DNA from: an uncultured bacterium
GTDB lineage: Bacteria > Cyanobacteriota > Vampirovibrionia > Gastranaerophilales > Gastranaerophilaceae
DNA length: 64,000 bases
Direction of reading: 5' to 3'
Assembly (NCBI GenBank): GCA_902760645.1
Contig: CACWHC010000001.1
Coordinates: 1 to 64,000 of the forward strand
Shown here: positions 41,283 through 55,136 of the stretch, piece by piece
How positions within the stretch are numbered: the stretch's first letter is position 1
How the letters are laid out: each line of letters opens with the position of its first letter
Made by a program: the position numbers and the translations under genes
The notes under the pieces: model-generated
What the model was told of the DNA's origin: nothing
The model's input: only the letters and a program-made list of their open reading frames with translations
Database searches by the model: none

Positions 41283-41326
41283 ATTTTAATAAAAACCGGC
41301 GATTGGCACTCTGCCGACGCAGAAAA

Positions 41327-41402
41327 GGGCGATTAGCGCAGTTGGTAGCGCATCTGAACGACATTCAGAGGGTCACAAGTTCGAGTCTTGTATCGCCCAC
41401 CA
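41327..41402 (+). tRNA. tRNA-Val (GAC) with unusual C33
   Basis: 76 nt including an encoded CCA. Acceptor GGGCGAT/ATCGCCC, D-stem GCGC/GCGC, anticodon stem TCTGA/TCAGA and T-stem ACAAG/CTTGT all pair. The anticodon loop reads ACGACAT, giving anticodon GAC but C at position 33, where almost all elongator tRNAs have U (and A at 32). It may be functional, a tRNA pseudogene, or affected by a sequencing error. Its 3' end is repeated exactly 212 bp downstream. Confidence 0.85.
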
Positions 41403-41403
41403 T

Positions 41404-41438
41404 AAAAAGAGGATAGGATTTTTCCTTATCCTCTTTTT
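41404..41438 (+). terminator. tRNA-Val terminator
   Basis: AAAAAGAGGATA-GGA pairs with TCC-TTATCCTCTTTTT (one bulge), ending in five T. Confidence 0.9.
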
Positions 41439-41455
41439 ATCTTGGGATTCTGAAA

Positions 41456-41616
41456 GACGAGAACTTGCACAGCAAAGCTGTGCCAAAGTTCGAGCGGATT
41501 TCCGTACGGCATTTATGCCGGATAGCGAACAGATTGAGCATACTGTGGCAAAGCCACAAATGCGAAACTCTGTGAGCGTGGAGGAAATCCAAGAAGGTCT
41601 TGTATCGCCCACCATA
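41456..41616 (+). repeat. tRNA-Val tail element: partial tRNA 3' copy split by a 102-bp insert
   Basis: Order of parts: GAACTTG, mini-hairpin CACAG-caaag-CTGTG, AAGTTCGAG (41486-41494, the 5' half of the tRNA-Val T-arm), a 102-bp insert (41495-41596) with inverted ends GGATTTCC and GGAAATCC, and the exact 20-mer GTCTTGTATCGCCCACCATA (41597-41616), which equals 41385-41404 of the tRNA. Short palindromes in the insert are CGGCAT-tt-ATGCCG and TGTGGC-aaa-GCCACA. Short ORFs here are artefacts. Confidence 0.75.
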
Positions 41617-41617
41617 G

Positions 41618-41640
41618 AACCTCCGAGATAATCGGGGGTT
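41618..41640 (+). terminator. Hairpin after the tRNA-Val tail element
   Basis: AACCTCCGA-gataa-TCGGGGGTT, then a weak T-stretch. Both tRNA tail copies are followed by such a hairpin. Confidence 0.5.
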
Positions 41641-41658
41641 GTATTATGCGATACAATT

Positions 41659-41750
41659 GACGAGAACTTGTCGTTTCAAGTTCGAGAGTGAACGAGCTGA
41701 GGCTGGAGCATTTTTGTTTGGAAGAAACGAAGTTTCTGAAAACAAAATGC
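41659..41750 (+). repeat. Third, truncated T-arm copy with long hairpin
   Basis: GACGAGAACTTG and CAAGTTCGAG (41677-41686) repeat the parts seen at 41456-41494. The sequence then runs into a hairpin with arms GCATTTTTGTTT and AAAACAAAATGC (41708-41750) containing GAAAC-gaag-TTTC. There is no acceptor-end copy. No gene is seen between it and TspO at 41814. Confidence 0.55.
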
Positions 41751-41801
41751 GGAATTGCCGTACTTACACTATTGAGGGATGTAAAATTTTTATGCAAACA
41801 A

Positions 41802-54362: not shown

Positions 54363-54614
54363 TGTTTCCGGGTTTATATATCACCCAAAAAACTATTATC
54401 CGGGTGGGTAATAAATTTATAAATAATATTTTACATTAAGGATAATTTTTTGTCAGCTGAAAAAGCTCCTAATGGCGACTAACACAGGCTTTAAATAAAC
54501 AATCAACAGTAATAGTCCGGCAAATCTCAAGGCTATAAACCTGCCTCTATCGCCCTGTAATTAGGCATATTTACCTAAAAACTCCAATCACAACTGTCCT
54601 GAAAACCTATAACA
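54363..54614. other. Gene-free 250-bp region, possibly structured
   Basis: No ORF with a ribosome site. On the minus strand a GGGCGAT stretch can pair with an AGTCGCC stretch about 75 nt further on, enclosing smaller stems such as AGGC-aggtttata-GCCT. I could not match it to a known riboswitch or small RNA. It may be remains of the lost kinase gene. Confidence 0.3.
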
Positions 54615-54650
54615 ATTAAACCCGATAAGGCGATGCCTATCGGGTTTAAT
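54615..54650 (-). terminator. Hairpin after the tRNA-Ser tail copy
   Basis: ATTAAACCCGATA-ggc...-TATCGGGTTTAAT is a long stem directly next to the copied tRNA-Ser 3' end. Confidence 0.7.
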
Positions 54651-54796
54651 TCGGAAAAGGTGGGATTTATCTTGCTCGGGTGCGTTTAACGTGTCTACGG
54701 ATTTTGACATCAAGAATTTCATTCTTTCATCAAAAGTCCTCCGCACTCAGCACCCTCGCGTTGAACCCACTGACAAAACTTCGTTTTGTGTGGGTT
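54649..54796 (-). repeat. tRNA-Ser tail element: partial tRNA 3' copy split by a 92-bp insert
   Basis: Read on the minus strand: AACCCAC, mini-hairpin ACAAAAC-gaag-TTTTGT, GTGGGTTCAA (54761-54770, 5' half of the tRNA-Ser T-arm), a 92-bp insert whose ends GCGAGGGTGC and GCACCCGAGC are inverted with 8 of 10 matches, and the 20-mer at 54649-54668, identical to 54856-54875 in the tRNA (plus strand ATTCGGAAAAGGTGGGATTT). Same layout as the tRNA-Val tail element. Confidence 0.75.
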
Positions 54797-54818
54797 AAAT
54801 TCTAATCCCTCTATACAC

Positions 54819-54858
54819 AATGATAGCCGACATATCTAAAGATATATCGGCTATCATT
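54819..54858 (-). terminator. tRNA-Ser terminator
   Basis: AATGATAGCCGA pairs with TCGGCTATCATT, with an inner TATATCT/AGATATG stem. It abuts the tRNA 3' end. Confidence 0.85.
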
Positions 54859-54947
54859 CGGAAAAGGTGGGATTTGAACCCACGGTGCAGGTAGCCCCAC
54901 ACAACACCTTAGCAGGGTGCCGCCTTAAGCCACTCGGCCACTTTTCC
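54859..54947 (-). tRNA. tRNA-Ser (GCU)
   Basis: 89 nt with the long variable arm of a class II tRNA. Acceptor GGAAAAG/CTTTTCC, anticodon loop CTGCTAA (anticodon GCT), discriminator G, T-arm GTGGG-TTCAAAT-CCCAC. CCA is not encoded. Confidence 0.96.
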
Positions 54948-55136
54948 AATCTCGTATTGTCATGGGAATCTTATCCCTATTTCATACTAGCATAAAATTT
55001 TTATTTTGCAAAACTTAAATATATCACCCGATAGGGCAATCTGTTATTTTATTCTAAAAAACATTTATATAGATGATTTATTACAACAAAAATTAGTATA
55101 TAAACATACTGTTGTATAACAAGGAGGACTATATTA

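Follow-up and report, generated by a model that had tools for sequence, protein, structure and literature searches.

A folded, cassette-like element behind tRNA and tmRNA genes of Gastranaerophilales

Duplicated tRNA ends in the window

Two tRNA genes of the window, the whole 64,000-nucleotide stretch of DNA analyzed, are each followed by a terminator, a folded element, a copy of the gene's own 3' end and a second terminator (Table 1). At tRNA-Ser(GCU), encoded on the minus strand, the 20-mer AAATCCCACCTTTTCCGAAT of the tRNA 3' end occurs at 54856-54875 and again, as an exact copy, at 54649-54668, 207 bp apart, and the T-arm 5' half GTGGGTTCAA also has an exact second copy. Both repeats had been noticed in a preliminary description of this DNA, as had a mini-hairpin, which was found within hairpin 1 of the element as ACAAAAC-gaa-GTTTTGT. 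The "partly inverted ends (8 of 10)" of the same description exist as inverted arms and covary; they form the base of hairpin 2, a long imperfect hairpin, and do not represent terminal repeats of the transposon type. Hairpin 2 occupies the 94 bp between the T-arm halves, and without these 94 bp the final 26 nt of the tRNA would stand there a second time with no mismatch. Within this duplicate tRNA end, the hairpin is placed exactly in the T-loop.

None of 3,000 random 20-mers of the window had an exact copy within 3 kb downstream. Since, in addition, the same pattern was found behind 17 of 42 tRNA genes and the tmRNA gene of the genome, the tail repeats are not due to chance.

The layout reported for tRNA-Val(GAC) was also recovered, with the tail located at 41385-41402 and 41597-41614. 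Separately, a repeat of about 98 bp starting with TATAGGTTTTCAGGACAG was observed at 54514-54611; it also ends contigs C8 and C16 of the genome, where it sits inside folded sites behind tRNA-Gly and tRNA-Leu, and represents another repeat family that lands in such sites. A mirrored case was seen upstream of a tRNA-Met gene (L023) of the same genome, where two copies of a tRNA 5' head (e.g., GTGGGACTGTGGC), each followed by ACTCTGCCG with its own hairpin, stand in tandem, and a degenerate head copy lies upstream of tRNA-Val (41298-41319). These look as if a second type of element inserted at the D-arm.

Table 1. Features of the two host loci in the window.
Feature	Position	Strand	Basis
tRNA-Ser(GCU); T-arm/T-loop is the inferred insertion point, between TTCAA and ATCCC	54858..54948	-	ARAGORN and Rfam RF00005
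Proximal terminator hairpin of tRNA-Ser	54822..54855	-	Sequence; shared by orthologous loci of relatives, whether these carry the element or lack it
Folded element behind tRNA-Ser	54813-54667	-	Covariance model R1 match 54658-54813
Outer stem, 5' strand (GAGGGATT)	54804..54811	-	Pairs with tail copy AATCCC; R1 match, DNA fold, covariation
Hairpin 1, made up of an inverted copy of the T-arm 5' half, a mini-hairpin looped by GAA and the T-arm 5' half itself	54764..54796	-	Fold; strand match to own T-stem
T-arm 5' half copy (GTGGGTTCAA)	54761..54770	-	Exact match
Hairpin 2, class A core (GAGTGCGGAGG ... CCGTAGACACGTTAAACGC ... GAGCAAGATAA, junction after the last)	54667..54760	-	R1 model, 102 aligned relatives, strong covariation
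tRNA-Ser 3' tail copy: T-arm 3' half and acceptor 3' strand (16 nt)	54651..54666	-	Exact match
Distal terminator hairpin after the tRNA-Ser tail copy, different from the proximal one	54619..54646	-	Sequence
tRNA-Val(GAC), second host gene	41327..41402	+	ARAGORN and Rfam RF00005
Proximal terminator of tRNA-Val	41404..41439	+	Sequence
Class B folded site (hairpin 1 with ACAGCAAAGCTGT, core CCGGATAGCGAA ... GAGCGTGGAG)	41453..41596	+	Model R2 match 41487-41604, E 3e-31, the site itself being among the four that built R2
tRNA-Val 3' tail copy including CCA	41597..41614	+	Exact match
Distal terminator behind the tRNA-Val tail copy	41617..41642	+	Sequence
Second, decayed folded site of the tRNA-Val array, with no recognizable tail behind it	41659..41769	+	Sequence only

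Fold and covariation of the element

The covariance model R1 was built from 12 aligned class A sites. The element forms a three-way junction composed of an outer stem (GGGAT/ATCCC, the right strand being the tail copy), hairpin 1 (GAACC...GGTTC), which tracks the T-arm 5' half, and hairpin 2, the conserved core at the T-loop position. The strand formed by the outer stem and hairpin 1, 5'-GGGAT-GA-GAACC, differs from the bottom strand of the tRNA gene, 5'-GGGAT-TC-GAACC, in the two central bases and in no others; at tRNA-Ser the outer-stem strand GAGGGATT is part of this inverted T-arm mimic. The hairpin-1 strand matched the T-stem of its own tRNA at 2.82 of 5 positions against 2.06 ± 0.18 (one site per tRNA type).

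In an alignment of 102 sequences, 94.5% of cells were paired and 751 two-sided changes were counted, compared with 202 ± 17 in shuffled and 68-158 in slid controls, counts which lean to the model because the alignment was fitted to its structure. The 12-sequence alignment, made without structure, gave the same picture (71 two-sided changes vs 23.7). Covariation, which the preliminary description had proposed as a check, was strong in both alignments, and the inverted arms, whose vanishing from alignments would have spoken against that description, were retained and covarying. Folding with DNA parameters returned the three-way junction from either strand (z -4.4 and -4.05).

The pairing is of the DNA type. 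Hairpin 2 contained 21 G.T cells and an equal number, 21, of A.C cells, and G.T made up 1.0% of its standard pairs vs 8.5% in the tRNA T-stems of the same loci. Three-base loops closed 98 of 156 hairpin tips, 47 of these 98 being GNA. G.U is far better tolerated in RNA, and GNA triloops with a C-G closing pair are unusually stable in DNA. As G.T is as rare as A.C in hairpin 2 and the tips are mostly three-base loops, the structure appears to act as DNA and not as RNA. The covariation including G.U that marks a structured RNA family was not found in hairpin 2, and an Rfam scan returned tRNAs only, with no match for the element.

Distribution, cargo and differences between genomes

The genome of the window (G000, 1.96 Mb, 42 tRNA matches) carries own-tail copies 110-2,313 bp downstream of the 17 tRNA genes and the tmRNA gene mentioned above. 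Nearly all of them directly follow CAAGAYA or a close variant, the end of a conserved element of about 150 nt; tail copies of tRNA-Pro are preceded by a different, 132-bp tandem unit. Two further arrays extend into contig ends, and on a separate contig a site is followed by a tRNA-Leu(GAG) tail. Class A sites number 18 in G000, and R1 matched 37 of 57 Gastranaerophilales genomes, those with names being Candidatus Gastranaerophilales or Melainabacteria MAGs, mostly from the gut. Class B sites (model R2) were found at tRNA-Val of the window and at tRNA-Gly, tRNA-Ser and tmRNA loci of other genomes, and a third class at tRNA-His of G008.

Of 77 model matches located downstream of a tRNA within the same locus, 54 agreed with the tail of that tRNA in at least 12 of 14 positions, and the majority of orphan matches still had a recognizable tRNA tail. 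Many sites were separated from the tRNA by 0.2-3 kb or stood where there is no tRNA. The recurring process suspected in the preliminary description, with a conserved structure and a sequence that tracks the host tRNA, was thus seen genome-wide and in the covariation. The tmRNA and the tRNAs share only the T-arm/acceptor part, and this suggests that the recognized feature is the T-arm.

Some sites have other neighbors. Genome G025 (L182, L189, L190) carries multi-copy variant sites that end in CCAAGCAG joined to GTTCTTNTCGGCACTTCGTG, the latter being downstream sequence of non-tRNA type. In three loci (L159, L173, L146) class A sites are followed by GTCCGRTTTYGRNANCAAAAATGTCC, a recurring non-tRNA sequence; other targets may be served there too. 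A Methylotenera match from a genome pattern scan received no score with the covariance model, and of nine matches on viral contigs eight were due to chance and the ninth was a prophage adjoining a Val(TAC) tail.

Cassettes of gene plus site, arranged in arrays as in integrons, were present. The Leu(TAG) array carries ParD/ParE genes, the tmRNA array an LprI-like gene, and the His and Gln arrays small proteins without a confident Pfam match. Units with open reading frames span about 0.8-2.4 kb (at His, Gln, tmRNA, Leu and Val), and most units are gene-less.

Presence and absence were compared between genomes of different, close species. At tRNA-His, the sequences of G005 and G009 share 98.4% identity over a stretch that begins about 1 kb upstream and takes in the tRNA, terminator, site and distal tail, beyond which the two sequences are unrelated until synteny returns kilobases later at about 75% identity. 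The only terminator at tRNA-His of the site-less G002 resembles the distal terminator of G000, which matches the prediction for an insertion of tail, terminator and site at the T-loop. The outcome was mixed at tRNA-Ser, where a lack of the copy in close relatives had been named as evidence against the preliminary description: the site is absent from G002, G003 and G006, present in G000 and G007 and truncated in G012. The proximal terminator is common to all of them, site-less relatives included, and the cassette reading therefore requires at this locus either a subsequent deletion or an insertion inside an existing array.

Sequences shared across host tRNAs were also seen. A foreign Arg(TCT) tail lies within an Arg(ACG) array of G012. 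Some hairpin-2 cores are closest to those of other tRNAs (Met2/His1 of G000, 91%; Gln of G000 and a tmRNA site of another genome, 89%), and others stay with their own tRNA (tmRNA, 95%; His2, 98%).

Origin of the units and comparison with known systems

These data give good support to a cassette-like system that operates at the DNA level and targets T-loops. The reading preferred here, at a probability of about two in three, is that the element is a site-specific recombination site working as folded single-stranded DNA and that the units are gene cassettes inserted at tRNA and tmRNA T-loops. Each cassette would consist, in this order, of a host tRNA tail (T-arm 3' half and acceptor strand), a terminator, an optional gene or genes and a folded site ending in CAAGAYA. 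It would insert between TTCRA and NTC of the tRNA and push the old tail and terminator downstream; the tRNA would stay intact thanks to the matching tail supplied by the cassette, and repeated insertions would build arrays. Once the strand is folded, the outer stem and hairpin 1 may stack as a quasi-duplex (GGTTC-GA / ATCCC) that mimics the double-stranded host T-arm, hairpin 2 protruding at the position of the T-loop; an integron attC, when folded, imitates a duplex core site in a similar way. The exact cleavage position, the single-strand exchange and the role of a recombinase are parts that we infer. A tail that travels with each cassette and is joined at the T-loop accounts for the data better than one copied anew, and the match of hairpin 1 and the outer stem to a new host tRNA is explained only in part.

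The movement of cores between tRNA types while the tails stay put is beyond simple cassette exchange by itself and speaks against the cassette reading. The shared proximal terminator at tRNA-Ser, the predominance of gene-less units and the failure to find an integron integrase over cut-off or a dedicated recombinase weigh against it as well. Such chimeras could arise in two steps, a foreign cassette being inserted distally and neighboring sites then recombining; homologous recombination between tails or sites could also mimic several of the observations.

The search for a mover gave few candidates. The integron integrase profile TIGR02249 was over cut-off in none of the 57 genomes, no dedicated recombinase stood beside the arrays examined, and no integrase gene lay inside the units inspected. 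The tyrosine recombinases of G000 are intact XerC and XerD, plus one truncated integrase (L070, G000:C14:89188-89466) 206 bp downstream of tRNA-Ile. As common movers, Y1 transposase (PF01797; absent in G000, found in one of eight genomes searched), serine recombinases and RVT_1 reverse transcriptases (both absent in G000) were rejected, as were FimB-like tyrosine recombinases of about 185 aa near some arrays, which are parts of other elements and do not occur in G000, and an integron-like integrase fragment of G022, which neighbors unrelated genes with no site near. In three genomes (L183, L184, L185), genes that by eye resemble Mu-like transposase and ATPase genes stand a few kb or less from class A sites. 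In G012, two serine recombinase genes are located shortly downstream of tRNA-His (L231, G012:C2:150201-152540), with no folded site there. The mover may be XerC/XerD, a lost or trans-acting enzyme, an unrecognized enzyme or homologous recombination.

It is unlikely that RecA or replication slippage between tail and terminator repeats near strong hairpins formed the units, with no site-specific enzyme and with cargo brought in by homologous recombination. Slippage would fit the same terminator standing twice in the Met and Ser(GGA) units and the near absence of the searched enzyme families in G000, and a deletion between ATTGT(G)TATAG repeats could yield the site-less state at tRNA-Ser, but it does not explain why a three-way junction should be conserved and covary, why its pairing should be of the DNA type or why it should sit at the T-loop, and the first appearance at so many tRNAs is unaccounted for. 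An origin as scars of ordinary tRNA-targeting integrative elements, in which the tail copies are attR of prophages or islands and the remainder is decayed element DNA, appears quite improbable. Tail repeats of 15-20 bp at tRNA 3' ends are the classic scar, some arrays have integrases, Mu-like genes or a prophage in their vicinity, and there is the truncated integrase behind tRNA-Ile; nevertheless, the conserved fold of about 150 nt that precedes each tail and shows compensatory changes by the hundred, units of just about 190 bp, tandem arrays, and the presence of one element at some 20 different tRNAs and tmRNA are left unexplained. It is very improbable that the element is an RNA, processed or regulatory, transcribed together with the tRNA. 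Its location behind tRNA genes in the same orientation, its good folding and its conserved core would fit, but Watson-Crick pairs are replaced by other Watson-Crick pairs and G.T is no more frequent than A.C in hairpin 2, hairpin tips are mostly triloops, a terminator usually separates tRNA and site, many sites are at a distance from the tRNA or where there is none, and Rfam gave no match.

Of the two origins offered in the preliminary description, the mobile unit is favored by presence and absence between close species, gene cargo and tail breakpoints, and the processed RNA is disfavored by DNA-type pairs and triloop tips. The arrangement is real and widespread, and apparently undescribed: no account of such a system was found in the literature on integrons at tRNA T-loops, Melainabacteria and Gastranaerophilales, in a search whose coverage left out most subscription journals. 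If the cassette reading is true, about two fifths of the tRNA genes of this genome are gene-capture platforms in a lineage without a recognizable integron integrase, which would bear on multiple origins of integron-type folded-DNA recombination and on how essential single-copy tRNA genes stay intact while used as targets. It also predicts a rule by which the site of a cassette must match the T-arm of its target tRNA.

Among known systems, IS200/IS605 and REP/RAYT share the use of single-stranded DNA hairpins and of a guide strand that pairs with the cleavage-site strand; unlike them, the units described here have one end structure instead of two, with cargo between sites, and Y1 transposase is absent in G000. 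Prophages, ICEs and tycheposons with tyrosine integrases resemble the units in their tRNA attachment sites, rebuilt tRNA 3' ends and direct repeats of the tail. The present units differ in being about 170-2,300 bp long and without integrase, and a single family, by way of its conserved folded site, is used at about twenty tRNA genes and at tmRNA.

In integrons, attC is recombined as a folded bottom strand with an unpaired spacer, extrahelical bases and a variable terminal structure, and attI is used as a duplex (PMC8946536). Like integron cassettes, including integrase-less CALIN arrays, the units stand in tandem with one folded, imperfectly palindromic site at each 3' end, the structure is conserved over sequence, the fold is at DNA level with unpaired spacer and extrahelical parts, and array content is variable with small cargo genes including toxin-antitoxin pairs; recombination of the folded strand would be a further, putative parallel. 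In contrast, the inferred insertion points are T-arms of many tRNA and tmRNA genes instead of one attI with a cassette promoter, no such platform having been noticed at the loci inspected, the fold is a three-way junction mimicking the host T-arm, and the cassettes bring a tRNA tail and terminator, many being gene-less. The R box GTTRRRY/RYYYAAC was not seen by eye in the aligned sites, which run from GGGAT-GAGAAC to CAAGACA joined to ATCCC, and no IntI was over cut-off. Since no integrase over cut-off, no core motif on inspection and no single attI were seen, the units are called integron-like and not integrons. Tentatively, and at somewhat less than even odds, they may represent a recombination system of a kind other than integrons: the genes for tRNAs and tmRNA are themselves the insertion sites, base complementarity lets the folded single-stranded site imitate the host T-arm, each tRNA type keeps a compatible cassette pool, and a housekeeping recombinase such as XerC/XerD or an unrecognized enzyme runs the exchange.
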